Source: Capnocytophaga cynodegmi DSM 19736 (lineage in GTDB: Bacteria > Bacteroidota > Bacteroidia > Flavobacteriales > Flavobacteriaceae). From it: a stretch of DNA of 64,000 nucleotides. This document shows, piece by piece, positions 1,175 to 63,885 of the stretch. Where the stretch lies: assembly GCF_000379185.1 (NCBI RefSeq), contig NZ_KB900715.1, positions 62,001 through 126,000 on the forward strand. Reading direction: 5' to 3'. The notes beneath the pieces were generated by a model. That model worked only from the letters and a program-made list of their open reading frames with translations. It searched no databases and had not been told where the DNA came from. Every line of letters begins with the position of its first letter. Positions within the stretch are counted from its first letter, which is position 1. The position numbers and the translations under genes were made by a program.

Positions 1175-1510
1175 ACTATACTTATTTTTAGTTTTCGCAT
1201 ATTATTTTCTTCTGCTCTTATATTATTTTGTAATTTCCTTTCTTATTTTTCTTTAGTACGATACTTTTTTTGTGTTTTCCTTACACTTTTTACTTAACAC
1301 TTATATTATTTTTCGTATTTCTATACTTATTTTTTGTTTTACTATATTTTTTTGTTTAGTTTTTATCTTATTCTCTGAATTTTGCTACATATTTTAATTT
1401 AAACTATACTTTTATATCGAAAAACTTTATTTATTTTAATTGATAGATAGATTTTTTGTCGTTATAAATTGCTTTTTTAGTTTGATAGACCTATTTTTTT
1501 ATTCAAAAAG
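1175..1510. repeat. 21-bp periodic T-tract array upstream of WG-repeat gene
   Basis: The whole gap between the WG-repeat gene and the gltA terminator can be cut into about sixteen 21-bp units. Units 1 to 10 share a core close to CTTATATTATTTTT followed by about eight variable bases. CTTATATTATTTT occurs at 1217 and 1300, and ATACTTATTTTT at 1178 and 1323. T-runs begin near 1185, 1204, 1226, 1246, 1265, 1286, 1309, 1330 and 1347. One step is 20 bp, between the units at 1280 and 1300. The strong T bias makes the weaker units at the gltA end uncertain. No gene is visible in this stretch. Confidence 0.6.
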
Positions 1511-1511
1511 A

Positions 1512-1540
1512 AAAAAGCCCCGAACAAAACGAGGCTTTTT
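1512..1540 (-). terminator. terminator of gltA
   Basis: An inverted repeat, AAAAAGCC...GGCTTTTT, with one G-U pair on the minus-strand RNA, ends in a T-run just past the gltA stop codon. Confidence 0.8.
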
Positions 1541-1555
1541 AATAGGAATTTGTTG

Positions 1556-2839
1556 TTATCTTTTACTGATATCGACAAATTTTCGTTGTGTTTGCCCAAC
1601 ATAAATCTGTCTCGGTCTCCCGATAGGTTCATTACCTTGTCGCATTTCTTTCCATTGAGCAATCCAACCTGGCAAACGTCCAATAGCAAATAGTACCGTG
1701 AACATTTCCACGTGCATTCCTAACGCACGATAAATAATTCCTGAATAGAAATCAACATTCGGGTACAAATTTCTCGATTTGAAGTAATCATCTTCCAAAG
1801 CTACTTTCTCTAAATGCTTAGCGATGTCAAAAATTGGGTCATCAATGCCCAAAGAATGTAAAACTTCGTCCGCAGCTTGCTTGATGATTTTAGCACGTGG
1901 GTCAAAATTCTTGTACACACGATGCCCGAAGCCCATAAGTCGGAATGGGTCGTCTTTATCTTTTGCCTTGTTGATGTATTTTTCCACATCGCCTCCGTCG
2001 GCTTTGATATCCTCTAACATTTCCACAACTGCCTGATTTGCCCCCCCGTGTAACGGACCCCAAAGTGCCGACACTCCTGATGAAATGGTTGCAAAAAGCC
2101 CCGCGTGTGATGAACCCACCAAACGAACCGTTGATGTAGAGCAGTTTTGCTCGTGGTCGCCGTGCAAAATAAGCAATTTGTTTAAAGCACTCACCACTTT
2201 CGGATTCATCACGTATTTTTCCGTAGGAATTGAGAAAGTCATCTGTAAAATATTCTCAATATAGCCTAATTCGTTATTATAGTAATTAAGCGGAAGCCCC
2301 TCACGCTTACGATACACCCAAGAAGACAATACCGGAATTTTCGCAATCACCTTACAAACAGCCTCATACACATCTTTTTCACAAGAAACGTCCACCGATT
2401 TTGGATTGAACGCTGTTAAGGCACTGGTAAGCGAGGCTAAAATCCCCATTGGGTGAGCTGTTTTGGGGAATCCGTCCAAAATGCCTTTCATTTCCTCGTG
2501 AACCAAGGTGTATTTATGAATGGTTTTGATGAACTTGTCATACTCTGCTTTAGTTGGTAACTCTCCGAAAACTAATAAATAAGCCACTTCCAAAAACTCA
2601 GCCTTTTCAGCTAACTCCTCAATATTATAACCTCTGTATCTTAGAATTCCTTTTTCTCCATCCAAGAATGTAATCGAACTCTTACAAGCCCCTGTATTTT
2701 TATACCCTGAATCCAAAGTAATTAAACCTGTTAAAGCTCGTAGTTTATCAATATCTATTCCTTTTTCATTTTCGGTTCCCACAACGATTGGGAACTCATA
2801 TTCTTTTCCTTCAAATGTTAGTTTTACTGTTTCCGACAT
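1556..2839 (-). CDS. gltA: citrate synthase
   Basis: Type I citrate synthase of 427 residues, the first enzyme of the TCA cycle, condensing oxaloacetate and acetyl-CoA in the cytoplasm. The family motifs are all present: HGDHEQN at about 226-232, GPLHGGAN with the catalytic His264, GFGHRVYKN with His306, and the catalytic Asp363 in NVDFYSG. The N-terminal beta domain (residues 1-70) typical of hexameric, NADH-sensitive enzymes is present. The length is normal. It is monocistronic: its own terminator follows and a promoter-like TATATTAG lies upstream with a TTG 19 bp further. Isocitrate dehydrogenase, acting two steps later, is in the same window at 10476 but is not linked in an operon. Confidence 0.97.
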   Translation of the reverse strand: MSETVKLTFEGKEYEFPIVVGTENEKGIDIDKLRALTGLITLDSGYKNTGACKSSITFLDGEKGILRYRGYNIEELAEKAEFLEVAYLLVFGELPTKAEYDKFIKTIHKYTLVHEEMKGILDGFPKTAHPMGILASLTSALTAFNPKSVDVSCEKDVYEAVCKVIAKIPVLSSWVYRKREGLPLNYYNNELGYIENILQMTFSIPTEKYVMNPKVVSALNKLLILHGDHEQNCSTSTVRLVGSSHAGLFATISSGVSALWGPLHGGANQAVVEMLEDIKADGGDVEKYINKAKDKDDPFRLMGFGHRVYKNFDPRAKIIKQAADEVLHSLGIDDPIFDIAKHLEKVALEDDYFKSRNLYPNVDFYSGIIYRALGMHVEMFTVLFAIGRLPGWIAQWKEMRQGNEPIGRPRQIYVGQTQRKFVDISKR

Positions 2840-2875
2840 AGTGTTATAGTTTAATTAGAAATGTTTTAAACGTTG

Positions 2876-2905
2876 CTAATATATAGTTTTTTTTTCAAAA
2901 ACCAA
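2876..2905 (-). promoter_or_regulatory. putative gltA promoter
   Basis: On the minus strand, TATATTAG (2876-2883) is preceded by TTG (2903-2905) at a 19-bp spacing. This resembles the Bacteroidota TTTG-N19-TAnnTTTG promoter, about 40 bp upstream of the gltA start. Confidence 0.5.
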
Positions 2906-2953
2906 CTCTTTTTTAAAGTTTTTTCAAAATTAGAAAATCAAAATCTATTTAAT

Positions 2954-3997
2954 TTATTGATTATCAAAAGAAACAACACTTCTACTTTCAAAACTATCGA
3001 AAGCTTTATCAATAACTCTCATAACATTTACAACTTGTTCAATCGGTGCAGGGTTAGATTTCCCATAAATCATAAACTCGTACAAATCATCATAAAAATT
3101 CATATAATTTCCATTTTGGGCTGTTGTTTCCTCCCGAAAATCAAATGTATGTAAAACACCATTAGGATTAATTATTTCAGGAAGCCATTTCTCTTTTGTA
3201 GGTTCCGCTCCCTTAACCAACTCATATTCCTGACTATCAAATCTTTGTTGCAAAAAACTGCCTTTATCTCCGTGCAAAACATATTCCCATTGTTTTTCTT
3301 TTGCCATTGTAGATGATTTTAATCGCACTCGAAGTTCATTTTCGTAGAACAAAATCAGCTCGAAATAATCATTCGTTTGTGTTTTCTCTCGAAAAAAGCC
3401 TAAATCAGCAAAAACCGATTTTGGTTTGCCAAATAGCTGAAGAGCTTGGTCAATTAAATGAGCTCCCAAATCGTGCAAAGCTCCTGAGCCTTCCGATATT
3501 TCTTTATGTGTTTTCTCACTGATTTGCGTACGAAATCGGTCAAAGCGAATCTCAACTTCTTTTAAATTTCCTAACACTCCACTTGCTGTAATTTCTTTTA
3601 CTTTTAGAAAATCTCCATCGTACCTTCTATTCTGATAAACACTTATGAGACAATTACTAATCTTTACCAACTTATGAAGCTCTTCCGCTTGTAACGCATT
3701 TACAGTCAATGGCTTTTCCACCAAAACATTTTTACCTAACTCTAGTGCCTTTTTCACATAATCAAAATGTGTTTGCACAGGCGTATTAACTACAATTAAG
3801 TCAATTTCTGAATCATTAAGTAACTCATTATAAGAACGATATAATTTAGAATCTGAATATTTTTCTCTTGAATCGCTCTTATATCGTTCTACGATAGCGG
3901 TTAGCCTAAAATTTGGATTGTTCGATACAAAAGGAGCGTGAAACACCCTTCCACTCATTCCAAAAGAAGCCAATCCTACATTGATTATTTTTCTCAT
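2954..3997 (-). CDS. Gfo/Idh/MocA family oxidoreductase
   Basis: NAD(P)-dependent oxidoreductase of 347 residues. Residues 1-120 form a Rossmann domain starting NVGLASFGMSGR (GxxxxG nucleotide-binding loop), with the family EKPLTV motif at 94-99. Residues from about 130 onward form the alpha/beta dimerisation and substrate domain, including an SGALHDLGAHLIDQ helix, where His is a typical catalytic-site residue of these enzymes. The substrate is probably a sugar or cyclitol derivative but cannot be read from sequence. It lies 18 bp after the DUF2797 gene on the same strand and probably shares its transcript. No obvious terminator separates it from gltA. Confidence 0.9.
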   Translation of the reverse strand: MRKIINVGLASFGMSGRVFHAPFVSNNPNFRLTAIVERYKSDSREKYSDSKLYRSYNELLNDSEIDLIVVNTPVQTHFDYVKKALELGKNVLVEKPLTVNALQAEELHKLVKISNCLISVYQNRRYDGDFLKVKEITASGVLGNLKEVEIRFDRFRTQISEKTHKEISEGSGALHDLGAHLIDQALQLFGKPKSVFADLGFFREKTQTNDYFELILFYENELRVRLKSSTMAKEKQWEYVLHGDKGSFLQQRFDSQEYELVKGAEPTKEKWLPEIINPNGVLHTFDFREETTAQNGNYMNFYDDLYEFMIYGKSNPAPIEQVVNVMRVIDKAFDSFESRSVVSFDNQ

Positions 3998-4015
3998 TGA
4001 ATTCTTCTTAAAGTA

Positions 4016-4807
4016 TTAATTAACAATGGTTAGTCTCACAACCAAACCTTCGTTTGAACGAACATTAAAAACTGTATCGTCTTCAAAAATAAGATATTGA
4101 CCTTTAATTCCTGTTAATGTTCCTTCGTATGTAGGTGTATTTAATAAATTTAGTGTTTTTATCTGTTTTGGATATTTTTCTACAGGAAAATGTATGTGTA
4201 TTTCTTCTGTTTGAATAAGATATGGTTCTATTTCCTTTGGAATAAAAGGCAACAAATCTAATTTAACTTTCTTTAAATTAATGTTTTCAATGGAATTTGT
4301 AAGCATTTTTCTCCAATTGGTTTTATCCGAAATATGTTGTTTTAAAGCCACTTCTGTAACTCCTGCCAGATACCGATTTGGTAACTCTGCAATGACCAAA
4401 GCCTCGTGAGCACCTTGGTCTATCCATCGTGTGGGGGTTTGTGATTTTCGAGTTACCCCGACTTTTACACTACTTGAATTTGCCAAATAAACATAATGTG
4501 GTTGCAATTGCATACGTTTTTCGTAATCTAAATCGCGTTCTTCGATATTTAAGTGTGCTTTACTCAATTCTGGATGCATAATCCAATCGGCTGCCTGAGG
4601 GACTTCGAAAAAACATTTTTTACAAAATCCTTGACGGAAAATAGGCTGCTCACTTCCACAATTCAAGCATTGAAAGTGTGAGAAAGACAATTTGATTTTT
4701 CTATTAATCAACTCATTAACAACCAAAAAATCATTCTGAAGTTGTAAGTAATAACGAACTGGATTACCTATCTCAGTAAGCATTTTTTGTAATACACCTT
4801 GAAACAT
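4016..4807 (-). CDS. DUF2797 zinc-finger protein
   Basis: Protein of 263 residues matching the DUF2797 family pattern. A four-Cys zinc finger (Cys47, Cys50, Cys62, Cys65) sits after an N-terminal segment. It is followed by HYVYLANSSSVKVGVTR and RWIDQGA, hallmark blocks of the family that look somewhat like a GIY-YIG core. Function is unknown in this family; nucleic acid binding is a guess from the zinc finger. It is the first gene of a probable two-gene unit with the Gfo/Idh/MocA oxidoreductase and is divergent from the GH3-like gene, from which it is separated by 89 bp. Confidence 0.85.
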   Translation of the reverse strand: MFQGVLQKMLTEIGNPVRYYLQLQNDFLVVNELINRKIKLSFSHFQCLNCGSEQPIFRQGFCKKCFFEVPQAADWIMHPELSKAHLNIEERDLDYEKRMQLQPHYVYLANSSSVKVGVTRKSQTPTRWIDQGAHEALVIAELPNRYLAGVTEVALKQHISDKTNWRKMLTNSIENINLKKVKLDLLPFIPKEIEPYLIQTEEIHIHFPVEKYPKQIKTLNLLNTPTYEGTLTGIKGQYLIFEDDTVFNVRSNEGLVVRLTIVN

Positions 4808-4896
4808 ATTTAATTTTTTTTTTAACTTTACCCGATTTTAATAAAATTTGACCTCTGTGATACAAATGACAGATTTTTTTCAAAAGTAATAAAAAA

Positions 4897-6426
4897 ATGC
4901 CATTAACACTATTCAATTCTATAACTTCGTGGTTTTTAAAACGGCGTATTGACCAAATTGAGCAATTTACGAAGAATCCCCATCAAACTCAAGAACGTGT
5001 TTTGTTGGAATTATTAAATACTGCAAAAGATACCGAAATTGGAAAAAAGTACGGATTTTCAGACATAAAAAACTATACTCAATTCGCAAGAAATACTCCT
5101 TTAGTCACTTATGAAGATTTTGAGCCTTTCATTGAGCGGGCAAGAAAGGGTGAACGCAATATTTTTTGGAATACTCCTATCAAATGGTTTGCAAAAAGTA
5201 GTGGAACCACCAATGCCAAAAGCAAATTCATTCCTGTAAGTGAAGAGGCATTACAGAATTGTCATTACAAATCAGGAAAAGATATGCTTTGCCTATACCT
5301 GAACAACAATGAAAACTCTAATTTATTCAAAGGAAAGAGTTTAAGACTCGGCGGAAGCAAAGAACTTTACGAAGAAAATGGAACATTTTTTGGCGATTTA
5401 TCAGCAATTTTGATAGAAAATTTACCTTTTTGGGCAGAGTTCAGTTGCACTCCAAGCAACAAAGTATCACTAATGAGCGAATGGGAAAGTAAGCTAAACG
5501 CAATTGTAAAAGAAGCTCGAAGTGAGAACGTTACAAGTATGGCAGGAGTTCCCTCGTGGATGTTAGTTTTGTTAAATCGTATCTTGGAAGAAACAAAGAA
5601 GGAAAATTTACTAGAAATCTGGAAAAACTTAGAAGTTTATTTTCACGGAGGAGTGAGTTTTATCCCTTATAGAGACCAATATAAAAAAATCATTCCTTCA
5701 GAAAGTTTTAGATATTACGAAATATACAATGCCTCTGAAGGTTTCTTCGGAATTCAAGACCGGAATAACTCAGACGAACTGCTTTTGATGCTTGATTATG
5801 GAATTTTTTACGAATTTATCCCAATGGAGACTTTTGGAACAAATCAGCAAAAAGTAATTCCTCTATCTGAAGTTGAACTTGAAAAAAATTATGCAATGGT
5901 AATCACAACAAACGCAGGGCTTTGGCGTTATATTATTGGTGATACTATTCGTTTCACTTCTATCTCACCATATCGTATCAAAATTACGGGACGAACAAAG
6001 CACTTTATCAACGTTTTTGGTGAAGAACTCATCATTGAAAACACAGAAAAAGGATTAGAAAAAGCTTGTAAAGCAACTAATAGTGAGATAATTGATTACA
6101 CCGTAGCTCCTATTTTTATGCAAGACAAACTAAAAGGTGGCCACGAATGGATTATTGAATTTAGCAGAAAACCAAGCGATATTGAGAAGTTTACAGAAAT
6201 TTTAGATGAAGAATTAAAAAAACTAAACTCGGATTACGAAGCAAAACGCTACAATAATATGACTTTGAATATGCCAAAAATTCATATCGCTCGAGAAAAC
6301 TTATTTCACGACTGGCTAAAAAATAAAGACAAGCTTGGCGGACAAAACAAAGTTCCAAGATTATCAAATAATCGCCAGTATGTTGAAGAACTACTTCATC
6401 TTCAGTCAATAAGTCAGCAATTATGA
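4897..6426 (+). CDS. GH3-family acyl-adenylating enzyme-like protein
   Basis: Protein of 509 residues with the layout of the GH3 (auxin-responsive) family, a branch of the ANL adenylating enzymes. The ATP-binding SSGTT loop is at 101-105. It is followed by SFIPYRDQY, the YNASEGFFG adenine-binding stretch, and TNAGLWRYIIGDT near the hinge to the C-terminal domain. Plant GH3 enzymes conjugate acyl acids to amino acids; the bacterial substrate is unknown. Its stop overlaps the start of rsgA by ATGA, so the two genes are translationally coupled. This pairing may be positional only. Confidence 0.88.
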   Translation: MPLTLFNSITSWFLKRRIDQIEQFTKNPHQTQERVLLELLNTAKDTEIGKKYGFSDIKNYTQFARNTPLVTYEDFEPFIERARKGERNIFWNTPIKWFAKSSGTTNAKSKFIPVSEEALQNCHYKSGKDMLCLYLNNNENSNLFKGKSLRLGGSKELYEENGTFFGDLSAILIENLPFWAEFSCTPSNKVSLMSEWESKLNAIVKEARSENVTSMAGVPSWMLVLLNRILEETKKENLLEIWKNLEVYFHGGVSFIPYRDQYKKIIPSESFRYYEIYNASEGFFGIQDRNNSDELLLMLDYGIFYEFIPMETFGTNQQKVIPLSEVELEKNYAMVITTNAGLWRYIIGDTIRFTSISPYRIKITGRTKHFINVFGEELIIENTEKGLEKACKATNSEIIDYTVAPIFMQDKLKGGHEWIIEFSRKPSDIEKFTEILDEELKKLNSDYEAKRYNNMTLNMPKIHIARENLFHDWLKNKDKLGGQNKVPRLSNNRQYVEELLHLQSISQQL

Positions 6427-7361: not shown

Positions 7362-7455
7362 AACATAACAACCTGATTTAAAGCAAAATAAAAAACATAA
7401 TTCTAAATAAAGTGTTTTTTATTAAAATATATTTTATCCACCCAAAAAAAAGTTA

Positions 7456-7463
7456 TACATTTG
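7456..7463 (+). promoter_or_regulatory. promoter -7 box of lipoprotein gene
   Basis: TACATTTG matches the Bacteroidota TAnnTTTG box and lies 30 bp before the ATG at 7493. A similar context (ACCCAAAAA..GTTAT.CATTTG) recurs at 21014-21034. Confidence 0.55.
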
Positions 7464-7492
7464 CCCTTTAATAATTTCATACACGCACTACA

Positions 7493-8590: not shown

Positions 8591-8612
8591 TATTGTTTTC
8601 CGAAATAAAATA

Positions 8613-8645: not shown

Positions 8646-8669
8646 TTTAAAATTCTATCGTTTTATTTG

Positions 8670-16877: not shown

Positions 16878-17444
16878 CTACTTAGAATATTTGTTTACTT
16901 TCCCTTGTGCTTTTATCAACTTAAGATTCAAATTATTGATATCTTGTTGCTTTTTAAGAATTTTTCCTTTGTACTTAGCCTCATCATTAGGTGAAAGATT
17001 CCCTTTGGCTTTCTTCACATTGTACTTATTTTCTTCTCGAGCTAACTCATTCTCTTTCTTTTTGATTTGAGTTTGTATTTTCAGAACCTCCTGATTAGCT
17101 TTTGCTAAATTTTGTTTGTTTTTTTGAGCTTCTTTTTCTGCTTTCTGAGCCTCCTTTTTAGCTCTCTCTTCAGCTTTTTTAGCTTTTTGTTCTGCTTTTT
17201 CTGCGTCTTTTTTAGCCTTCTCTTCAGCTTTTCTGGCTTTTTCTTCAGCTTTCAGTGCTTTTTCCTTCTGTTTCTGAGCCTTTTGTTCAGCTTTCAGCAT
17301 TTCTTTTTCAGCTTTCAACTCAGCTTCAGTTTTGGTAACAGGCAATACTGTTATCAGTGTATCCTTTGGAGTTGTATTTTCCTGAGCAAAAGATATTTGC
17401 ACTAAAAACAATCCAATAATAAATGTGTAAAATTTCATTTTCAT
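16878..17444 (-). CDS. secreted Lys/Glu/Ala-rich coiled-coil protein
   Basis: Protein of 188 residues. A signal peptide (basic start, FYTFIIGLFLV core, cleavage near SFAQ) is followed by residues 35-135 made almost only of K, A, E and Q in short repeats such as EKARKAEEKAKK, a near-continuous coiled coil. A second helical part (about 140-188) contains KAKGNLSPNDEAKYKGKI. It is probably periplasmic; a structural or envelope-spanning role is only a guess. Low-complexity sequence of this kind also looks like TolA-type domains, but no other TolA feature is seen. Confidence 0.8.
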   Translation of the reverse strand: MKMKFYTFIIGLFLVQISFAQENTTPKDTLITVLPVTKTEAELKAEKEMLKAEQKAQKQKEKALKAEEKARKAEEKAKKDAEKAEQKAKKAEERAKKEAQKAEKEAQKNKQNLAKANQEVLKIQTQIKKKENELAREENKYNVKKAKGNLSPNDEAKYKGKILKKQQDINNLNLKLIKAQGKVNKYSK

Positions 17445-23061: not shown

Positions 23062-23790
23062 TTATTCCGAAGTGTCAGGCTTTTGTTTGGAACGACTTAA
23101 AATTAAAGAATCATCAATAAGTTTGTTTAATACCGCAACAAAAGTACTCGCCTCTACCGATGGAATAGCAATGCTTTGCGATTGGGCTCTCAAGGCAATT
23201 TCATCATAAATCAGATTGGTTTCCTTACGAACCTTTTTCGTGCTTCCTGTTTCTTTGGAAGATTGCACAAAAGTTCGGTCACCCATTTGTTTTTCAAAGT
23301 CTTCGTTTAGCGTTTTTAGGTGTTCTAACGTTGCTGTAAGCCCCAGTGTAGCAACATCTTTCGCATTTTTGTCCGATGCAAGGTCGCTTAACAATGCACG
23401 AATAGCAACCGACTCTTCGTTGTACTCCATTGTAGGTACATTTTTGTAATTCTTAGTTGCTTCATACAAACTTTCGGACGCTTCTTTACGTTTAACAATG
23501 TGTGACTTACGCTCATTACGAATACTTGCCAACAAATATCTAACGATATTATCTCGTTCCTTATCCAGCTTCATTAATTCTTTGGTTTGCTGTTCGGAAC
23601 GATTTTCGTACGCCTTTTCAGTTAAAATTTTGATATTTTCCTGAAACTTTTGGAATAACTTTTCACTGATTTGCAGTTTTTCCAGCGTAGTAGTACGAAC
23701 CAACTTTTCCACTTCAATCATAAAGTGCAAATACTGAGCATTATTTAACCTCGTTAAATAAATGTTTTTAATTTTTACCAATTTTTCCAT
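23062..23790 (-). CDS. DUF6261-like protein, paralogue 1
   Basis: Helical, charged protein of 242 residues without signal peptide or membrane segment, so probably cytoplasmic. The opening LVKIKNIYLTRLNNAQYLHFM, a centre with ELMKLDKERDNIVRYLL, and YKNVPTMEYNEESVAIRALLSDL plus LTATLEHLKTLNEDFEKQM match the DUF6261 pattern known from Bacteroidota genomes. Function is unknown. Two further relatives lie at 45865 and 62957. The upstream gap holds a 41-bp-period array, as for the other two. A terminator shared with the convergent TlpA-like gene follows. Confidence 0.82.
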   Translation of the reverse strand: MEKLVKIKNIYLTRLNNAQYLHFMIEVEKLVRTTTLEKLQISEKLFQKFQENIKILTEKAYENRSEQQTKELMKLDKERDNIVRYLLASIRNERKSHIVKRKEASESLYEATKNYKNVPTMEYNEESVAIRALLSDLASDKNAKDVATLGLTATLEHLKTLNEDFEKQMGDRTFVQSSKETGSTKKVRKETNLIYDEIALRAQSQSIAIPSVEASTFVAVLNKLIDDSLILSRSKQKPDTSE

Positions 23791-23941: not shown

Positions 23942-24126
23942 TAAAAAAATGTTTTTGAGCTTAGATTGCAGAACGTCTCATCTTAAAAAAAGTTTTTGGA
24001 ATAAGATTATATACAATCTTATCTGAAAAAGTTTTTTTTATGCAAGATTGTATACAATCTTTCTTGAAAATTTTTTATTCATAAAAGATTGCTCATCATC
24101 TTATCTAAAAAAATATTTTTCTAATA
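23942..24126. repeat. 41-bp periodic palindromic array upstream of DUF6261 gene
   Basis: AGATT starts at 23963, 24004, 24045 and 24086, exactly 41 bp apart. Each unit is about 21 bp of AGATT-N7-ATCTTATCT followed by about 20 bp with an A-run then a T-run. The third unit is a perfect 18-bp palindrome centred on GTATAC (24044-24061); units 2 and 4 are near-palindromes, and the centre of each unit varies. A 41-bp period cannot be coding in a constant frame. Confidence 0.85.
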
Positions 24127-32942: not shown

Positions 32943-33251
32943 TTATCTCTTATCTTCTATTCCATATTTACGCCACATTGATTGTTCGTAATCAATTTTT
33001 ATACGTTTTCTCATCTTTGAAGAACGTTCTTCCATCTGTTTTTGCTTTTGAGTAGCTTCTTCGGTTTTCTTTTTCAGTTCAGCTTTTAGGCTTTCTTGTT
33101 CACTATTGAGTTTTTCTACTTCATTTCGTAAGTTTTCTAACTCATCAATAGCTTCTTCTGTAATTCCTGCTGGTAGAGCATCTTTTGATTCTCTAAGTCC
33201 ATCGATTAACACTTTAACTTGTGCTATCTTTTCCGCATATGATTTTGGCAT
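32943..33251 (-). CDS. small coiled-coil protein linked to 21-bp array
   Basis: Protein of 102 residues, strongly helical and charged. It opens with MPKSYAEKIAQVKVLIDGLRE, has a central coiled coil (ELENLRNEVEKLNSEQESLKAELKKKTEE) and ends RIKIDYEQSMWRKYGIEDKR. The W-K/R-x-[FY]-G-I-x-D-K-R tail looks like a conserved signature of small Bacteroidota proteins I have seen, but I cannot name a family. No signal peptide, so cytoplasmic. A precise 21-bp array begins 75 bp upstream of the start. Function unknown. Confidence 0.75.
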   Translation of the reverse strand: MPKSYAEKIAQVKVLIDGLRESKDALPAGITEEAIDELENLRNEVEKLNSEQESLKAELKKKTEEATQKQKQMEERSSKMRKRIKIDYEQSMWRKYGIEDKR

Positions 33252-33326: not shown

Positions 33327-33473
33327 ATCTTTCCCAAAGTATTTTTCATCTCTCCCAAGTCATTTTTTATATTTCCCATTCTTTAGGAAAGGTTTCCCAA
33401 GAGAAAATCCATCTTTCCCAAAGCATTTTTTATCTTTCCCAACACTTGGGAGAGCTTTCCCAAAGAATAAATC
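33327..33473. repeat. 21-bp periodic TTTCCCAA array
   Basis: CCC occurs at 33333, 33354, 33375, 33396, 33417, 33438 and 33459, seven units with an unbroken 21-bp period. Most units read ATCTTTCCCAAAG followed by about eight variable bases. Unit 6 is a palindrome (CCCAA..TTGGG, 33438-33450) and unit 3 has TTTCC...GGAAA (33372-33390). It fills the gap between two minus-strand genes, upstream of the coiled-coil gene. Confidence 0.92.
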
Positions 33474-33511
33474 ATCTCACTTTTATTCTATTCAAGATTA
33501 AAAATAAATTT

Positions 33512-45864: not shown

Positions 45865-46623
45865 TTATTCGGTTTTGTTTTTATCTTTTTTTGAAGTCAT
45901 TTTAGCTGCGTTGCGTCTGGCGATAATCATATCATCAAAGTATTTACGACCATTATTAACAACACCAAGTAATTTTACAAAAAATTCATCATCACGCACA
46001 CGAGCTAAAATATAGATATAATCCGACAAATCTTTATAAATAGTGGTAATTTCTTTTCTAAGTTCCTTTACATTATAAGTAGGTTTTTTCAATGATTGAG
46101 AAGAACGATTAGCAAATAGTTCATTAAAATGACGATTAGCTTCTGACAGATTTGTAATAAATTTAGCTAAAGATAGTTCTTTAACCTGATTTTTATATTC
46201 TTCATTTTGTAGTCTCTCTGTGAGATTTGCAAAACGATATGTCACTTGCTCATATCCTTCATTTTCTACGCCCTTGTATTCTGCAAGGAGCAAATTTATA
46301 CTTGTGTATGCATCTTTTTCCTTTTGATTACTTGAATACTTATATGCATTTAATGCCGACTTAAATGATTTTAAAGAAAACTTACGTTCTTTATGAGCCT
46401 GTAATATTTTAGTAGAGTCAGCATTACCACGAACTTGGTCTATTGCTTCATTAAAGATAGGTTTTTTAGTTTTAATTTCTTCAAACAATCTTTTAAAATC
46501 AGCATCTGTTTCTATATCCAATCCTGATTTTTCAAAATCTTCAAAAAAACGAACTAACAATTGTGCAAACTCTGCATTTTTTAAACTGGGAAGATGAATG
46601 GTTGTTAATTTTAAATTTTTCAT
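45865..46623 (-). CDS. DUF6261-like protein, paralogue 2
   Basis: Helical cytoplasmic protein of 252 residues. The start KNLKLTTIHLPSLKNAEFAQLLVRFFEDF is the family opening, shared in form with the paralogue at 23062. A Lys-rich centre (HKERKFSLKSFKSALNAYKYS), YKGVENEGYEQVTYRFANLTERLQNE and a C-terminal helix pair with a KKDKNKTE tail follow. No catalytic motif seen; function unknown. A 41-bp-spaced palindrome array lies upstream and a long inverted repeat downstream. Confidence 0.8.
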   Translation of the reverse strand: MKNLKLTTIHLPSLKNAEFAQLLVRFFEDFEKSGLDIETDADFKRLFEEIKTKKPIFNEAIDQVRGNADSTKILQAHKERKFSLKSFKSALNAYKYSSNQKEKDAYTSINLLLAEYKGVENEGYEQVTYRFANLTERLQNEEYKNQVKELSLAKFITNLSEANRHFNELFANRSSQSLKKPTYNVKELRKEITTIYKDLSDYIYILARVRDDEFFVKLLGVVNNGRKYFDDMIIARRNAAKMTSKKDKNKTE

Positions 46624-46918: not shown

Positions 46919-47082
46919 TTTTCTCGATATGAGATTTCATTTACACAACTCATTTTTCATTCACTCAATTTGAGAAAATTATTTTATAGTTTTAATCTCA
47001 CTATCACATTAAAAAGTAATCATCTTAATTTTCAGAATACTTTTTCTATAGTATAGAAAATATACTTCTAAATACATTATTC
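46919..47082. repeat. 41-bp spaced palindrome array upstream of DUF6261 gene
   Basis: Palindromes are centred at 46928 (TCTC...GAGA), 46969 (CTCAATTTGAG) and 47051 (TTTTCTATA-G-TATAGAAAA), i.e. 41 and 82 bp apart. The unit that would be centred at 47010 is not palindromic. Units share a TTnnCT...AGAAAAT frame, while the arms change together (CTC/GAG versus CTA/TAG) so that symmetry is kept. The array lies between the pruA terminator and the DUF6261 gene. Confidence 0.65.
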
Positions 47083-54947: not shown

Positions 54948-54956
54948 ACTTTCAAA

Positions 54957-56264: not shown

Positions 56265-56594
56265 CTATGGATAAGGTGCTAAAATCACCTCCAACCCATC
56301 TATTTCCTCTGTGATGAGAATCTGGCAACCCAATCTGCTATTTTCTTGCACGTGGTATGCTTCAAATAACATTGCCTCTTCTTCATCAGATTTTTCTGGC
56401 AACAACACATCGTTTTGCACATAACATTGACACGACGCACACATTGCCATACCTCCACAAACACCTATTTCTCCATCTTGAGCAATTTCATAAGCCCTCA
56501 TTACCTCCATCAAATTCATACTCATATCCGTAGGAGCTTTCAATTCGTGCGACACGCCATCTCGGTCTGTTATTTTAAGTGTTATATCACTCAT
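56265..56594 (-). CDS. adrenodoxin-type [2Fe-2S] ferredoxin
   Basis: Ferredoxin of 109 residues. The cluster ligands follow the C-x5-C-x2-C...C pattern of the vertebrate/Isc Fdx group: Cys46, Cys52, Cys55 and Cys90; Cys57 is an extra. RDGVSHELKAPTDMSMNLMEVMRAYEI precedes the cluster loop. It shuttles electrons for iron-sulphur assembly or redox enzymes. A ferredoxin-NADP reductase is coded 1.1 kb upstream on the same strand, separated by one unrelated gene, so the two may form a redox pair. Confidence 0.94.
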   Translation of the reverse strand: MSDITLKITDRDGVSHELKAPTDMSMNLMEVMRAYEIAQDGEIGVCGGMAMCASCQCYVQNDVLLPEKSDEEEAMLFEAYHVQENSRLGCQILITEEIDGLEVILAPYP

Positions 56595-56597
56595 TTT

Positions 56598-57710: not shown

Positions 57711-57744
57711 TCTTTCGTTAGTACTATATGCTTTTCAATTTTTT

Positions 57745-58797
57745 TTACTCTATCGATTTTACGACGGCTTTTTCGGCTTCTTTTCGACTTCCATCGAAGC
57801 CATCAACACCCGCCACAGTTGTATATTTAAGAACGTATTTTTTCCCTGGATTCAATCGATTATAAATGCTTTGACACATCAATGTAGCTTCGTGAAATCC
57901 GCAAAGGATTAATTTCAGCTTACCTGGATATGTATTAATATCCCCAATAGCATAAATTCCTTCTATATTTGTTTGGTAATCAAGGGCATTATTTACTTTA
58001 ATAGCATTCTTTTCGATTTCTAATCCCCAGTTAGCAATAGGCCCCAACTTAGGAGTAAGCCCAAACAATGGAATAAAATAATCGGTTTCTATTTCTTGCT
58101 GAACTCCTTCTTTCTCCAAAACAAGTGATTCCACCTTTCCGTTGCCTTTAATTTCGACCACTTCGCAAGGAGTCATCAAATTGATTTTACCTGCATCTTT
58201 AAGTACTTTCACTTTTTCAACGGAATCCAATGCTCCACGAAACTCATTTCGGCGATGAACCAAAGTCACTGATTTTGCAATATTTGCCAGATAAATACTC
58301 CAATCTAAAGCAGAATCTCCTCCTCCTGCAATTACCACACGCTTCCCTGCATACTGCTCTGGATTTCTTACAAAATATTCTAATCCTTTTTCTTCATACT
58401 CTGCAAGGTTACTCAATTCTGGTTTACGTGGTTCAAAAGTACCCAAACCTCCTGCAATAGCTACAGCTTTTCCTTTAATCTTTGTTCCTTTATTAGTAGT
58501 TACTACAAAAGTTCCATCCTCATTCTTGTCAATGGTTTCAGCAGTTTCAGAAAGCGTGAATTCAGGCTGAAATTGCTTGATTTGCTCCATCAAATTATCA
58601 ATAAGTTCACCCGCTCCCACACTCGGATAACCAGGAATATCGAAAATTGGCTTTTTAGGATATAACTCTGCTAACTGCCCTCCTGGTTGTGGCAATGTGT
58701 CTATTAAATGGCACTTTAACTTCAGTAATCCTGCTTCAAATACCGCAAAAAGCCCTGTAGGCCCTGCTCCTACGATAATTATATCTGTTTCTTTCAT
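57745..58797 (-). CDS. ferredoxin-NADP reductase, thioredoxin-reductase-like
   Basis: Flavoenzyme of 350 residues of the YumC/TrxB-like ferredoxin-NADP reductase type. The FAD loop is IIVGAGPTGLFAVFEAGLL, followed by DTLPQPGGQLAELYP. The NADPH-binding core is GKRVVIAGGGDSALDWSIYLA, and the C-terminal FAD contact is IYAIGDINTYPGKLKLILCGFHEATL. The CxxC pair of true thioredoxin reductases is missing, which fits the ferredoxin reductase. The nearby ferredoxin at 56265 is the likely partner. It is the first gene of this minus-strand run. Confidence 0.93.
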   Translation of the reverse strand: MKETDIIIVGAGPTGLFAVFEAGLLKLKCHLIDTLPQPGGQLAELYPKKPIFDIPGYPSVGAGELIDNLMEQIKQFQPEFTLSETAETIDKNEDGTFVVTTNKGTKIKGKAVAIAGGLGTFEPRKPELSNLAEYEEKGLEYFVRNPEQYAGKRVVIAGGGDSALDWSIYLANIAKSVTLVHRRNEFRGALDSVEKVKVLKDAGKINLMTPCEVVEIKGNGKVESLVLEKEGVQQEIETDYFIPLFGLTPKLGPIANWGLEIEKNAIKVNNALDYQTNIEGIYAIGDINTYPGKLKLILCGFHEATLMCQSIYNRLNPGKKYVLKYTTVAGVDGFDGSRKEAEKAVVKSIE

Positions 58798-58937
58798 TTT
58801 TTATACAAAAAATCTCTGTATTATGCTAAGCAACTTTATTTCAATAATTTATATTCAAAAATATTTTTCAGCTTTCAGAAAAACTCAATTTTTTCTTTCA
58901 GTCATTTTATAAACATAACAGAATTAAGAATTTAGGA

Positions 58938-59200
58938 AGAAAAGACAAACTTCTGAAAAACTTGTCTTAAAAAATAACCACAGTTGCGTGGCAAATATGA
59001 AGTATTATTCTTTTATCTTGGCTTTGGGAAAGTCCAAAAAATACTGCCTATCCCCATCTCACAACATCACTTCCCAAAAAATTATTTTCTGCATTTTATC
59101 TGCGAATATACTCTTTTTCAATATCTGTATAATTTTAAGATTGATAAGAGTAGTTCTTTACTTGAGTCAAATTTAACTCCTCAGATAACGATAAACCTCC
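58938..59200 (-). ncRNA. probable structured small RNA
   Basis: Transcript on the minus strand inferred from a near-consensus promoter just upstream (59202-59232) and a terminator-like hairpin AAGACAA...TTGTCTT (58942-58968). Between them are several self-complementary segments: GAGT...ACTC (59164-59179), TACTCTT/AAGAGTA (59109-59115 with 59146-59152), TTTGGGAAAGT with ACTTCCCAAA (59023-59033 with 59069-59078) and CCAC..GTGG (58978-58991). No good reading frame on this strand. The region is GC-richer than the flanks. I do not recognise a known RNA family. It lies in the 518-bp gap between cvpA and the reductase gene. Confidence 0.5.
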
Positions 59201-59201
59201 G

Positions 59202-59232
59202 CAAATATACATATTCATTTCAGTATTTTCAA
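59202..59232 (-). promoter_or_regulatory. promoter of the probable small RNA
   Basis: On the minus strand TTG (59230-59232), a 20-bp spacer and TATATTTG (59202-59209) match the Bacteroidota promoter. Confidence 0.6.
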
Positions 59233-59315
59233 GCTACATTACTAAATATAATCAACAAAAAAACATTTTTAACATTTAATTAGCTTTTATTTTCAGAAAT
59301 AAACAAAACTTCCAC

Positions 59316-59792
59316 TTAAAAAATATTTTTGTAGAACAACTCCCCTACACTTTTTATAGGTTCGTAAAGCACAGAATTCTGCAATGTTTTTTCAGGTATC
59401 CATTTCGTTATCTGCCACGTTTTTTCAAGCATCAAAAACAATGAACCAGCGATAATAGTCACCTTTAAAACACCAAAAATTCCACCAGCTAATCTATTCA
59501 AAAACCCTAAAGAAACTGACTCCACAACCTTCGTAAGTAACTTCGCCAACAACATCACAATCAACATAATAAGCACCAATATAAAAGCGAATGAAACAGC
59601 TTCTGTTGTGGACTTATCCAACGACAAATGCTGATTCAAAATCCCAGCGACATAGAACGAAAAATGAATCGCTCCGTAAATTCCTAATACAATAGCAAGT
59701 AGCGAAGCCAACTCAATAATAACTCCTCTCCAAAGACCTCGAATTAAGCCAAAACCTAAAAAAATCAATAATATAATATCTACTGTATTCAT
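59316..59792 (-). CDS. CvpA family membrane protein
   Basis: Membrane protein of 158 residues with four hydrophobic segments, matching the CvpA family: NTVDIILLIFLGFGLIRGLWRGVI at the N-terminus, VLGIYGAIHFSF, ILVLIMLIVMLLAKLLTKVVES, and LNRLAGGIFGVLKVTIIAGSLF. Family members are linked to envelope stress tolerance and colicin export in other phyla; the role here is unknown. It lies downstream of deoC on the same strand, separated by a hairpin. Confidence 0.9.
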   Translation of the reverse strand: MNTVDIILLIFLGFGLIRGLWRGVIIELASLLAIVLGIYGAIHFSFYVAGILNQHLSLDKSTTEAVSFAFILVLIMLIVMLLAKLLTKVVESVSLGFLNRLAGGIFGVLKVTIIAGSLFLMLEKTWQITKWIPEKTLQNSVLYEPIKSVGELFYKNIF

Positions 59793-59813
59793 AACGTTTT
59801 ATTGTAAAAACGA

Positions 59814-59863
59814 AAATATGATAATTTAGAAATTATAGAATAACTCCTTAAATTATCATATTT
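59814..59863 (-). terminator. deoC terminator
   Basis: AAATATGATAATTTA and its exact reverse complement (59849-59863) form 15-bp arms with a 20-base loop just after the deoC stop. Confidence 0.65.
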
Positions 59864-59877
59864 CTAACAATATCAAT

Positions 59878-60537
59878 TTAATATCCTGTTCCTGTACCTC
59901 CCGTGACAATGGCAATTCCGTTGGAAGTTCCGATGCGTTCTACTCCCAAATCAATGTATTGTTTTGCTGTTTGAAAATCTCGAACCCCTCCTGAAGCTTT
60001 AATCTTAGCCTTTCCGTTTACGGCTTCTTTCATAAGCTGAACGTCCGAAAGAGTTGCTCCTCCTGTTCCAAATCCTGTAGAAGTTTTCACAAAATCAGCA
60101 CCTGCCTCTACAGATAGTTTACAAGCTAATTTCTTTTCTTCATCGGTAAGATAGCAAGTTTCTAAAATCACTTTCAGCACATTATTTCCACAAGCTTTCT
60201 TAATTTGAACAATTTCTTCGCGAACTTTATCAACCTCTCCCGATTTTAAAAGTCCCACATTAATTACCATATCTATTTCATTTGCCCCATCTGCAAGAGC
60301 TTGTTCTGTTTCAAAAACTTTGGATTTCAAACTCATAGCTCCCAAAGGAAAACCAACAACACTACATACGTTAACATCTGTACCTTTTAAAAAATCTTTA
60401 GCATACGGCACAAATGCACTATTCACGCAAACAGAGAAAAAATCATACGTAACAGCTTCTTTACAAAGTGTTTCAATTTCTGAAATAGTTGCATTAGCTT
60501 TCAGAAGTGTGTGGTCAATAAATTTATTTAGTTTCAT
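59878..60537 (-). CDS. deoC: deoxyribose-phosphate aldolase
   Basis: TIM-barrel aldolase of 219 residues splitting deoxyribose 5-phosphate to glyceraldehyde 3-phosphate and acetaldehyde in nucleoside breakdown. [11 protein letters not shown] opens the family domain; [17 protein letters not shown] holds the catalytic Asp, [13 protein letters not shown] the Schiff-base Lys, and KASGGVRDF the second Lys region. It is slightly short with a GGTGTGY tail. Single gene with its own terminator. Confidence 0.95.
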
Positions 60538-60640
60538 ATTTGTTGTATATTTTTTAAAAAATTAAACTTCGCAAAGTTACGATTTATTACTTTTTTGAAC
60601 AATATAAACAAAGAAAAAAGCTATTTTTTAGTAACACAAA

Positions 60641-60678
60641 ACGAGAGCTTCCGTATTAATTAACACGAAAGCTCTCGT
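60641..60678 (-). terminator. terminator of S46 peptidase gene
   Basis: ACGAGAGCTT and AAGCTCTCGT form a perfect 10-bp stem, extended by CGT/ACG, after the peptidase stop. Confidence 0.85.
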
Positions 60679-60695
60679 AATTTTATACAAACATT

Positions 60696-62891
60696 TTATT
60701 TACGTCTTTTCTTTGACTTTTTAGAAGAAGTACTTTTCTTCGGATGTACCAATTTCATCTCGTCAACGAGGTGTTTTGCTCCTGCATATTTATCGATGAT
60801 GAATAGAACATAACGAATATCCACCATAATATTACGACAAATTTCAGGGTCGTAATGAATGTCGCTCATTGTACCTTCCCAAACGCGGTCGAAATTAAGC
60901 CCGATGAGATTTCCGTGTGCATCAACAGCAGGACTTCCCGAATTTCCGCCTGTGGTATGATTGGTAGCGATGAAGCAAACAGGCATTTTTCCGTTCTTGT
61001 CGGCGTAAGCTCCAAAATCTTTCTTCTCATACAAGTCACGTAATTTCTGCGGAACATCAAATTCGTAATCGTTCGGAACGTATTTTTCCATCACACCTTC
61101 CAAATAGGTCACAGGGCTATAATATACCGCATCGGCAGGGGCATATCCTTTTACTTTTCCGTAAGTAACACGCAATGTACTATTTGCATCAGGGAAAATT
61201 CTATCCTCAGGCTTTGAAAACTCCAAAATAGCTTTCATATACGTACGTTGCAAAGCCTCAATATCCGCATTCAAACGCCCATAAGTTGGGGCAACCTCTT
61301 TCGCAAAACTATTTATCAGCTCGGAAACGAACTGCATTCCCACATCATTTTTTACCAATTCCTCAAAGGTTTCAGGCGAAGCAGTAAGCAATTTTTCTAC
61401 TCCTGCTTCGGTGGCTAACAATGACTTTTCGTAAAGGCTTTCCGCCAATGTTTTTGCATCAAAATTTTGTAACTTTTCGGTTAGGAATTGCTTCGGCATA
61501 TGCTGTGCATAAAAAACTACCGCTTTTTCAAAAACATCTTTATCTACCGACTTTTCATAATCCTTAAACACACCTTTGAAAGTAGATTGTAAATTCTTTT
61601 TTCTATCTTCAAACGATTGTACACCACGATTTTGCAAAACGTTTTGCAATTGCCAAATGCGATACCCATTGGTAAGAAAATCAATATTTCTCAATGCAAA
61701 TTCACTAAATAAATCATTAGCTAAGGCATACGGCTCAATTTCTTGATATTTTTTAGCAAAATCGGAAAGTAAATGCCCATACGCTGCCGATTTTCCAGCC
61801 TTTTCAACATTATTTTGGAAGATGCTTTCTTGCTTTTTCTTTAAAGCTACCGCCCCTGATTTTTTCAAACCTTGACTCTCTCCAATCCATTTTTTCCAAT
61901 AGTTTGCTACTCGTGCGTATTTAGAAGCATATTTAATCTTAATGGCTTGGTCTTTACGCATATACCCGTCTTGTACTTTCAACACCACATCACGAATTCC
62001 GATTTTTGCTGGGTTCAATACATCAACAATTTGCTGAACAGCAACTGCTGGAAGGTATTCTTGCGTACGTCCTGGGTAACCGAAAACCATCGTGAAGTCA
62101 TCTTCGGAGATGCCGTCCAACGAAATTGGAAAATAATGCTTAGGCGTGTAAGGTACGTTGTCTTTGGAATACTCGGCAGGACGATTATTCTTATCGGCAT
62201 AGATGCGGAAAAGAGCAAAGTCTCCCGTATGTCGTGGCCACACCCAATTGTCTGTATCTGAGCCAAATTTTCCGATAGAAGACGGCGGAGCTCCTACCAA
62301 ACGCACATCTTTAAAGTTTTCTACCACGAACAAAATATATTGATTTCCGTTATAGAAAGCTCGTACGCGATTTTCCTGCCACGCCTCTTTGGGTGATGTT
62401 TTCACCAATTCAGCGATGTTTTTTTCGATGATTTTGGCTTTTTCGCTTTCAACAGAAAGATTTTCTGTACCTTTGACAATAGTAGCCGTAACATCTTCAA
62501 TACGAACGATAAACGTAACGCTCACGCCAGGGTTAGGCAATTCTTCGGCAAGAGTTTTCGCCCAGAAGCCATTTGCCAAATAATCGTTTTCAACCGTGGA
62601 GTGCGACTGAATTTCGCCATATCCGCAGTGATGATTGGTAAGTAACAACCCCTTTGGAGAAATTACCTCGGAAGTACAACCGCCATCAAAGTGCGGCACC
62701 GCATCTTTAAGTGAAGAATGGTTCACGCTGTAAATATCTGCTGCTGACATCTTCATTCCCAGCGATTTCATTTCTTTTTCGTTCATTCCCTCCAAAAGCG
62801 AAGGAATCCACATTCCGCCCTGTTGTGCATAGAGCGAAACTGAGCAAAATAGTAATAAAAGTTTTACATATTTCATCATTTGTATCGTCAT
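60696..62891 (-). CDS. S46 family dipeptidyl peptidase, DPP11-like
   Basis: Serine peptidase of 731 residues from the chosen start MTIQMMKYVK; further ATGs at 62879 and 62876 would also give a signal peptide (YVKLLLLFCSVSLYAQ). The trypsin-like parts are TSEVISPKGLLLTNHHCGYG with the catalytic His, DTDNWVWPRHTGDF with an Asp, and TTGGNSGSPAV with the catalytic Ser. S46 enzymes remove dipeptides in the periplasm of Bacteroidota that live on peptides. GLNFDRVWEG after the Ser carries Arg where DPP7 has Gly; this Arg marks Asp/Glu specificity in DPP11. The frame is open 20 codons upstream but looks unlikely. Confidence 0.93.
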   Translation of the reverse strand: MTIQMMKYVKLLLLFCSVSLYAQQGGMWIPSLLEGMNEKEMKSLGMKMSAADIYSVNHSSLKDAVPHFDGGCTSEVISPKGLLLTNHHCGYGEIQSHSTVENDYLANGFWAKTLAEELPNPGVSVTFIVRIEDVTATIVKGTENLSVESEKAKIIEKNIAELVKTSPKEAWQENRVRAFYNGNQYILFVVENFKDVRLVGAPPSSIGKFGSDTDNWVWPRHTGDFALFRIYADKNNRPAEYSKDNVPYTPKHYFPISLDGISEDDFTMVFGYPGRTQEYLPAVAVQQIVDVLNPAKIGIRDVVLKVQDGYMRKDQAIKIKYASKYARVANYWKKWIGESQGLKKSGAVALKKKQESIFQNNVEKAGKSAAYGHLLSDFAKKYQEIEPYALANDLFSEFALRNIDFLTNGYRIWQLQNVLQNRGVQSFEDRKKNLQSTFKGVFKDYEKSVDKDVFEKAVVFYAQHMPKQFLTEKLQNFDAKTLAESLYEKSLLATEAGVEKLLTASPETFEELVKNDVGMQFVSELINSFAKEVAPTYGRLNADIEALQRTYMKAILEFSKPEDRIFPDANSTLRVTYGKVKGYAPADAVYYSPVTYLEGVMEKYVPNDYEFDVPQKLRDLYEKKDFGAYADKNGKMPVCFIATNHTTGGNSGSPAVDAHGNLIGLNFDRVWEGTMSDIHYDPEICRNIMVDIRYVLFIIDKYAGAKHLVDEMKLVHPKKSTSSKKSKKRRK

Positions 62892-62956
62892 TGATTTATT
62901 TTTTATGTTTTTCAGTATGAATAGGTTAGTTATACCTACAATTAAGTACAAAAAAG

Positions 62957-63649
62957 CTACTTTTTCCCTCGGCGATTGATGGTTGTATTGGCATCATCAA
63001 TTACTTGTGAAACCACTTTCGAGAAGTTAGTGTAAGTACTTTCTTCCTGTAAAGCAGCCAGATAACTAATCAATTTTGTATTGATAAGCCCCAATAAAGG
63101 TTTTTTCAGAGCTGTTGCCGACTCGTCGAATTCTTGTTCGGAAACGGACTTTTCATACGCCATTCGCTCGGTATGAAAAGCCGTCTGACGGGTGCGAAGC
63201 TCTTCTATTGTATCGGATACTCCCAAAAGTTTTCCGATAGCTTCTTGCAACTCGGTGGCGGAAAAATCTCGTAAAAGCGATTCGATATGTGCCGATTCGC
63301 TCGAGTAGTTTTCACGTGTGATTTTCGTTCCGTAACGGTCAAAAACAGCATATAGTTTTTCGGCACTTTCACGGATTTCAGGCGAACGCATCGAGCGATA
63401 GCCCAGCAATATGTTGCTTAAATTCATAATCGTTTCGTCACGCAGATTGTCCGCTTCTTCCAACTTGGAAACGGCAACTTCTTTTTTGATAGCCACCGAA
63501 AGTGCCGTAGCCTGTGTGTCAATTTTCTCAAACAGATTTTTCAAAAAAGCATCTGTTTGTAATTCATTTTCTTGGTGAAAAAGCCCTACCAAACGATGAG
63601 CTATATCAGCCAATTCGGAAACACGTACTATTGTTAATAATCGTTTCAT
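62957..63649 (-). CDS. DUF6261-like protein, paralogue 3
   Basis: Helical cytoplasmic protein of 230 residues that starts KRLLTIVRVSELADIAHRLVGLFHQ, the family's opening. The middle has KKEVAVSKLEEADNLRDETIMNLSNILLGY, and SAEKLYAVFDRYGTKITRENYSSESAHIESLLRDF corresponds to the matching part of the 23062 paralogue. A basic tail NRRGKK ends it. Function unknown. The upstream gap is a 41-bp array; the S46 peptidase follows closely on the same strand, so they may share a transcript. Confidence 0.8.
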   Translation of the reverse strand: MKRLLTIVRVSELADIAHRLVGLFHQENELQTDAFLKNLFEKIDTQATALSVAIKKEVAVSKLEEADNLRDETIMNLSNILLGYRSMRSPEIRESAEKLYAVFDRYGTKITRENYSSESAHIESLLRDFSATELQEAIGKLLGVSDTIEELRTRQTAFHTERMAYEKSVSEQEFDESATALKKPLLGLINTKLISYLAALQEESTYTNFSKVVSQVIDDANTTINRRGKK

Positions 63650-63680
63650 TGTATATAAATTTTGATTAATTCAGTGTATG

Positions 63681-63885
63681 ATTTTTTAGTCATTAGTAGC
63701 TTCATCTTGCGGAAGCCTCCGACTAAAAAGTGATTTATATCTTCTTTCGGAAGAAATTTTTAACTAAATGATTGCACTTTTCTGCAATCCTTAGATAATC
63801 ATCACTAAATAGTTATCCATCTAAACAACGCAAACAGAGGTTTAACTATTTAGTCACGGCATTGTTTTGCGTAATTGATGCCTTA
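63681..63885. repeat. 41-bp periodic ACTAAAT array upstream of DUF6261 gene
   Basis: ACTAAA starts at 63722, 63763 and 63804 and the related ACTATT at 63845, all exactly 41 bp apart. A further unit from 63681 shares TTTAGTCA with the 63845 unit. Palindromes occur within it: ATTGCA...TGCAAT (63771-63788), TTCTT...AAGAA (63742-63755) and ACTAAATAGTTA with its exact inverse (63804-63815, 63843-63854). The last unit ends at the stop codon of the next gene. Confidence 0.8.

Follow-up and report, generated by a model that had tools for sequence, protein, structure and literature searches.

Helically phased tandem arrays upstream of DUF6261, PQLLE and 102-residue protein genes in Capnocytophaga: candidate private DNA sites of predicted helical proteins

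The window considered here, a stretch of 64,000 nucleotides of Capnocytophaga cynodegmi DSM 19736 (positions 62,001 to 126,000 of NZ_KB900715.1), is part of contig C13 in a 2.66-Mb genome (G000) and carries, on its reverse strand, genes of several families and, upstream of most of them, intergenic tandem arrays with units of about two or four turns of the DNA helix. Three of these genes (23062-23790, 242 amino acids (aa); 45865-46623, 252 aa; 62957-63649, 230 aa) had been called DUF6261-like in the initial annotation, and rightly so: they match Pfam PF19775 with E values of 2e-40, 1.2e-37 and 1.2e-21, respectively, and the scores of the three proteins (77.7, 129.6 and 138.7 bits) lie well over the cut-off of 27. 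A further gene (32943-33251) encodes a 102-aa coiled-coil protein that belongs to a second array-linked paralogue family and is a half-length relative of the NCBIfam family PQLLE, and a WG-repeat gene runs off the window start. The same annotation placed a 41-bp array directly upstream of all three DUF6261 genes and a 21-bp array upstream of each of the other two. When the autocorrelation of the five gaps, maximised over lags 12-89, was compared gap by gap with 1000 dinucleotide-preserving shuffles, four of the arrays exceeded every shuffle, so that their periodicity is not a product of shuffled AT-rich gaps: those at 23942-24126 and 63681-63885, both with lag 41, upstream of the 23062 and 62957 genes; that at 33327-33478, upstream of the 102-aa gene, with lag 63 followed by 21, 84 and 42; and that at 1175-1510, upstream of the WG-repeat gene, with top lags of 62 and 83 and hence a unit of approximately 20.7 bp. 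By contrast, neither the array at 46919-47082, upstream of the 45865 gene, nor its 41-bp period found support (p 0.51 and 0.69 across lags with two sizes of test region, p 0.107 at lag 41 alone); this is at most a decayed array, and therefore two, not three, of the DUF6261 genes in the window possess a supported 41-bp array. Within the five gaps, Tandem Repeats Finder called 1302-1363, 23976-24112 and 33327-33478 and made no call at the 46919 or 63681 arrays. The unit of the 23942 array is strongly palindromic (palindrome score 0.85, 0/200 shuffles), and the core of the 33327 array reads TTGGGAAAGAT in gene sense. A 54/21-bp repeat at 17121-17316 was set aside as protein repetition, since it lies inside the coding sequence (CDS) of a coiled-coil-like gene (16878-17444).

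Does the association between DUF6261 and the arrays, first proposed from three cases, hold in other genomes? DUF6261 has 16 matches in G000 and between 0 and 29 in each of 20 genomes of the genus (own included), with at least one in 14 of them, and most paralogues have an array just upstream, each with a different motif. Screening of 85 loci, which beyond the own genome were those returned by searches, best matches first, rather than all matches, left 82 with a family open reading frame (ORF), 80 of at least 200 aa and 79 with sufficient sequence upstream. A strongest lag of 41-43 or 82-86 characterised 68 of the 79 upstream regions, 60 of them at p<=0.01, versus 16 of 80 downstream regions, only three at p<=0.01, an enrichment that bears out the proposed link, even if many loci in this and the following linkage counts are orthologous and hence not independent. 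Arrays at this level occurred in 12/16 regions in the own genome, 18/25 in the rest of the genus and 30/38 outside it, where the family is rare (6/296 genomes in a phylum draw, 23/296 in an order draw, 22 of these over the cut-off, and 5/294 in a class draw). Among 14 named loci (from Capnocytophaga, Maribellus, Draconibacterium, other Bacteroidetes, Prolixibacteraceae, Ignavibacteriae and Melioribacteraceae), several of which probably come from organisms already counted and are thus not independent, 13 gave a top lag of 41, 42, 82 or 83 (0/200 shuffles) and one a lag of 41 with p 0.06. Carriage by phages or plasmids was considered and rejected: no phage record matched DUF6261, the window query matched three of 72,556 plasmid records, all predicted non-mobilizable, and in one genome (G007) all matches lie on a single 2.69-Mb contig.

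The link is not confined to DUF6261. The 102-aa family, matched in 12 of the 20 genomes of the genus (at most 10 matches per genome, a few within longer frames), showed lags of 21 bp or a multiple thereof (p<=0.01) in 17/28 upstream versus 4/28 downstream regions (28 of 30 loci had 300 bp upstream). A third family emerged from a scan of the own genome by position, made on 20 stretches, each 20 kb long, that included three 102-aa genes at places already known: with the window counted in, arrays of helical period were present at p<=0.01 in eight of the 100 gaps that measured 150 bp or more, and two of these eight lie upstream of PQLLE genes (E 5.8e-70 and 8.2e-60; 235.3 and 202.1 bits for L197 and L181, above the 80-bit cut-off of NF052641). 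The window 102-aa protein matches the same family over half its length and below that cut-off (E 1.2e-6, 28.4 bits); PQLLE was not found within the window. PQLLE matches occur in 14/20 genus genomes, and of 30 loci fetched, six were too short and four had no usable ORF; the 20 that remained all had arrays at p<=0.01 upstream, versus 2/20 downstream, and together with 11/11 usable loci outside the genus (17 in all) this makes 31/31. Two PQLLE genes (L223 and L216) have a 21-bp array on either side, upstream and downstream. Across the 20 genomes the numbers of matches to the three families co-vary (Spearman 0.84, 0.92 and 0.86, uncorrected for shared descent and with a few fragments counted), from 29, 7 and 7 matches in G004 (again with a few fragments) to no match to any of them in G001, G012, G017 and G018 and a single remnant in G008. 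PQLLE exceeded its cut-off in six of the 296 order-draw genomes, four of them DUF6261-positive (hypergeometric p 3e-4, both draws of 296 being taken as the same genomes). G000 itself has 16 DUF6261, eight whole PQLLE and five 102-aa genes, approximately 22 of the 29 with a significant array. The 1175 array, which has no adjoining gene of these three families and was found with the same two neighbours in G002 and G019, may have an owner other than the WG-repeat gene. Its sequence is matched (E 6e-12; both regions A-rich) by the region of a 21/63-bp array (lag 63, 0/200 shuffles) upstream of a gene for a 224-aa protein in G005 (L248:1995-2666) that the PQLLE profile leaves unmatched and that perhaps represents a fourth array-linked family.

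How specific is the spacing? In 1.262 Mb of own sequence, consisting of the window and 60 stretches chosen by position, the second 40 of which were placed around family loci already known, 22 strong tandem clusters (75/120 matching bases reached) were found, with lags of 21 (seven), 41 (one), 42 (four), 62 (one), 63 (three), 82 (one) and 84 (one). Thus, 18 of the 22 fall on helical multiples (20-22, 41-43, 62-64 and 82-86), ranges that make up 14 of the 78 lags scanned, and one of these 18 (C24:106821) overlaps an ORF called as coding; the other four clusters have lags of 14, 54, 77 and 81, those of 54 and 81 being inside a CDS. The 27 strong DUF6261 arrays have periods of 42 (14), 41 (10) or 43 (three) bp. 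Lag 82-85 signals in the control gaps L014, L018 and L023 were traced to dispersed repeats (CTTCGACT..CAGCCTGAC and CCCCCTTAAAAGGGGG) and excluded from the array class; the own genome has repeats of this dispersed kind, containing stretches similar to CTTCGACTTCGCTCAGCCTGAC and CCCCCTTAAAAGGGGG, in several of its gaps (L018:1244-1923, L023:3643-4434, L022:4967-5843). One shared core motif, GGAAA, present in 8/15 PQLLE arrays, is not claimed because orthologues inflate its count and the control breaks dinucleotides.

Common geometry with a locus-private motif, as the initial annotation had it, is also what comparison of the consensus units of 54 DUF6261 arrays with the identity of their proteins supports. 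Mean unit similarity stays at the null (7.3-7.7 versus 7.3) when the proteins are less than 50% identical and then rises to 12.2 (50-65%), 15.1 (65-75%), 19.3 (75-85%) and 21.7 (>85%, three pairs), which is to be taken as a trend rather than as a set of independent tests, since the bins contain related pairs and a few close pairs are unlike. Could the arrays nevertheless be neutral minisatellites, that is, functionless tandem duplications in AT-rich promoter DNA? That some paralogues lack a significant array, as if arrays decayed, would fit, yet strong clusters would not be expected to favour multiples of about 21 bp, arrays are rare downstream of family genes, and motifs are alike between proteins that are 50-75% identical (array units alone compared), all of which makes this explanation most improbable.

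Some of the motifs recur far from any family gene. Profiles made from 19 of 28 gene-linked arrays of G000 (nine were too weak) and run against about 1.4 Mb of own sequence found a distant array of the same motif, with no family gene, for 4/6 PQLLE and 1/3 102-aa arrays, at six places in all (best E for each 5.5e-16, 4.3e-14, 9.9e-15, 6.4e-12, 4.6e-9 and 2.5e-7), versus no match for 190 column-permuted control queries. Two PQLLE arrays of similar motif have two distant places in common, and one of the two shows a weak match to the cis array of the other as well. Across the whole G007 genome, the palindrome of a 102-aa gene (TGTAGGA-N5-TCCTACA, at most one mismatch) has four occurrences in the array of that gene and another four in a single further array, located in a convergent gap with no family gene seen and next to a second 21-bp array with a different motif; a reversed-pattern control gave one match. 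Distant arrays also stand in a convergent gap and, as we take it, between efflux-pump-like genes and, at two sites, in a cell-wall gene cluster. Two distant PQLLE-type arrays, L282 and L283 (G000:C36:63891-64226 and 82174-82417), stand in what is presumably a cluster of cell-wall and division genes, near genes that we take to be ftsI-like, mraY-like and murD-like. Two more arrays have no matched owner, L279 (C36:14093) and L186 (C1:246211), upstream of a presumed polA-like gene and a presumed gene for a topoisomerase-IV-subunit-A-like protein, respectively. A convergent gap in G007 (L176, C1:2060353 onward), where no family gene was seen, contains two different 21-bp arrays in succession.

It is conceivable that distant arrays are merely relics of lost family genes and have no role in trans. 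In line with this, none of the flanking ORFs is a family gene at 14 of the 18 clusters of helical period in the genome sampled, with the caveat that for one of the 14 (C24:106821) a 102-aa gene follows about 0.5 kb downstream. A six-frame profile search (E 0.01) found no coding trace of DUF6261, PQLLE or the 102-aa family within 2.5 kb of 12 such orphan arrays, however, and uniformity is higher in two distant arrays (115 and 111 of 120) than in the cis array to which they correspond (94 of 120); relics are thus a distinctly doubtful account. Somewhat less improbable, though still unlikely, is that the arrays are mobile or gene-converted repeats resembling miniature inverted-repeat transposable elements (MITEs), with the genes as passengers or helpers and the distant arrays as inserted copies. 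The patchy spread of DUF6261 within the genus speaks for it, as does the 62957 locus, whose gene and array are both present in G000, G002 and G005 and both missing, between the same two neighbours, in G019. So does the terminal stretch GACCGGTAAA, shared (by eye) by the cis array of a PQLLE gene on contig C9 and two distant arrays of the same motif; this common end suggests that the arrays may terminate at a defined point. Against the mobile-repeat account stand a motif that varies from one paralogue to the next and tracks the protein, and a period maintained across genera.

With regard to expression of the linked genes, DUF6261 arrays end at a median of 100 bp from the ATG (54 arrays). The Bacteroidota-type promoter box has the consensus TAnnTTTG, which is present in 30 of the 79 last-200-bp stretches, versus 10.7 expected, and in 14 of the 16 box-carrying stretches with a strong array the box stands between array and ATG. 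Dyad symmetry reached p<=0.05 in 9 of 27 strong arrays. These imperfect inverted repeats would suit arrays that are transcribed and act as RNA, in the form of repeated 5'-leader hairpins bound by a helical protein or controlling translation, and the 63681 array and L161 contain a few units whose arms vary from one unit to the next and yet pair (by eye). A 102-aa relative (29% identity) on an IMG/VR viral contig, near genes that we take to be terminase-like and integrase-like (L128:4810-5297), has its own 21-bp array extending over the likely ribosome-binding site to about 20 bases from the ATG, which also fits. Across the 54 DUF6261 arrays, however, compensatory change is not enriched in paired arms (4.5% of changed cells versus 3.9% for other axes), on which ground the hairpin reading was rejected; moreover, the promoter-like boxes mostly lie between array and ATG, hairpins require no 21/42-bp spacing, and distant arrays stand away from family genes, one of them in a convergent gap. 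An RNA role is therefore rated very unlikely.

What kind of proteins are these? The 62957 product is 99% identical to a Capnocytophaga canis protein. Its AlphaFold2 model is all-helical (pLDDT 92.9), and that of the 102-aa protein, built from two sequences only, consists of a short helix and a 64-residue helix (pLDDT 89.3). PQLLE is a tandem duplication of a unit of about 105 aa (hhalign of half versus half 96.8%, E 3e-10), one half of which is matched by the 102-aa family (N half 83.9%, E 8e-6; C half 51.5%), and DUF6261 too is internally duplicated (N half versus C half 80.6%, E 1.3e-5). Protein length does not simply set the period, since two-unit PQLLE stands mostly at 21 bp, as does the one-unit 102-aa family, and DUF6261 at 41-43 bp. 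The 102-aa proteins are basic (median pI 9.0).

Linkage to arrays, helical period, motif privacy, covariation of motif and protein, distant matching arrays and a predicted helical fold have all been computed, and they are best accommodated, in what we regard as the probable explanation, by helical proteins that recognise their own phased arrays, regulate themselves and, in a few cases, use distant arrays as targets or anchors. DNA binding, cooperativity, autoregulation and bridging are what we infer. Each gene would encode an all-helical protein recognising its own array, with units that recur at two turns (21 bp) in the case of the 102-aa and PQLLE families and, for the most part, at four turns (41-43 bp) in that of DUF6261; such spacing would place all sites on one face of the helix, so that proteins could pack side by side. 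Because arrays end shortly upstream of the start codon, usually before the promoter-like box, filling them may repress (or activate) the gene itself. Distant arrays of some PQLLE and 102-aa proteins might then serve as extra targets or as anchor points joined by protein bridging, and the many paralogues with different motifs would act in parallel within one genome. The initial annotation had suggested a common binding principle with cognate specificity, which motif-protein covariation and the distant same-motif arrays support indirectly, at the level of sequence.

Several observations weigh against this self-recognition by helical proteins. No significant array was detected upstream in 19 of the 79 DUF6261 and 11 of the 28 102-aa regions, and many arrays lack a palindromic unit. 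None of 10 DUF6261 arrays had a distant copy in the approximately 1.4 Mb of G000 searched, and one DUF6261 motif (L023) occurs in the whole genome only at its own array. Motif privacy and covariation are imperfect too: own-genome paralogue pairs average 8.4, slightly above the null, unit similarity is low for some pairs of closely related proteins (L122/L124, 77% identity, score 7; L059/L075, 79%, score 8), and the overall rank correlation between unit similarity and protein identity is only 0.17. As for the proteins, no DNA-binding domain or fold was recognised in them and, DUF6261 apart, no Pfam family scored above cut-off; for the DUF6261 model Foldseek gave no PDB hit that reached E 0.001 (its only hits, weak ones to various helical proteins, were not adopted), and no PDB sequence match is better than E 0.02. 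Pfam and NCBIfam scans likewise revealed no helix-turn-helix (HTH) family, the helices of the models not having been inspected for a hidden HTH. Homology between DUF6261 and PQLLE was tried with hhalign and rejected as not significant, and neither family is strongly basic (median pI 7.8 and 6.7).

A more far-reaching version of recognition by helical proteins, put forward here tentatively and with rather more doubt than belief, is that the roughly thirty protein-array pairs of a chromosome act as independent DNA addresses that bridge or mark chosen places, rather than as ordinary single-operator repressors. Each protein would coat its private array at home, and PQLLE and 102-aa proteins would also coat one or more far arrays, bridging or marking, for example, gaps between genes of the cell-wall cluster. 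The data suggest that one chromosome carries numerous such address pairs of protein and DNA, in parallel and not previously described: within the terms used, the open-access literature yielded no description of a link between these families and arrays, nothing on PQLLE, no title on these arrays among reports of Capnocytophaga intergenic tandem repeats, and for DUF6261 one paper, on Streptococcus. Should the proteins bind their arrays, they would offer many orthogonal DNA-binding specificities on an unrecognised helical fold, a recognition code learnable from protein-array comparison, as the target stands beside each gene, ready-made orthogonal binders for engineering, and a function for DUF6261 and PQLLE. 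Why, then, would G004 have 29, 7 and 7 matches when five of the 20 genus genomes have next to none?

Helix-phased repeats upstream of the binder's own gene are familiar from StbA operators and plasmid iterons, which serve plasmid stability or replication. The arrays described here resemble them in this arrangement and differ from them in that those systems have one specificity per replicon. Further afield, FOXP3 forms multimers on microsatellite repeats and thereby bridges DNA (PMC10719092); it is, however, a eukaryotic forkhead protein, and the accessible passages of that source mention no cognate array at its own gene. BldC is a small protein that assembles in head-to-tail multimers on DNA direct repeats, but it is MerR-like with a regulon, and its abstract does not mention private arrays for each paralogue (PMC5859096). 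The BrickBuilt MITE of Porphyromonas gingivalis provides intergenic tandem arrays of approximately two turns per unit, likewise in a Bacteroidota genome, and carries promoter elements; its single 23-nt unit is shared by 19 places and flanked by a leader and a tail that have small inverted-repeat ends, whereas the units here measure 21 or 41-43 bp and differ between paralogues, and the passages found tie BrickBuilt to none of the DUF6261, PQLLE or 102-aa families (PMC4596501). Closer in behaviour is KfrA of plasmid RA3 and the IncP plasmids, an alpha-helical protein that oligomerises, binds to a repetitive operator within its own promoter, which it represses, and contributes to plasmid maintenance (PMC7783346). 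As with KfrA, a repetitive operator-like array stands here directly upstream of its own gene. KfrA, however, is plasmid-encoded and has an N-terminal HTH (PMC7783346), whereas here many chromosomal paralogues have private motifs and no recognised HTH family, and carriage on conjugative plasmids was not found. On present evidence the families described here do not appear to be KfrA members, and KfrA on its repetitive operator would seem to be the nearest described behaviour.

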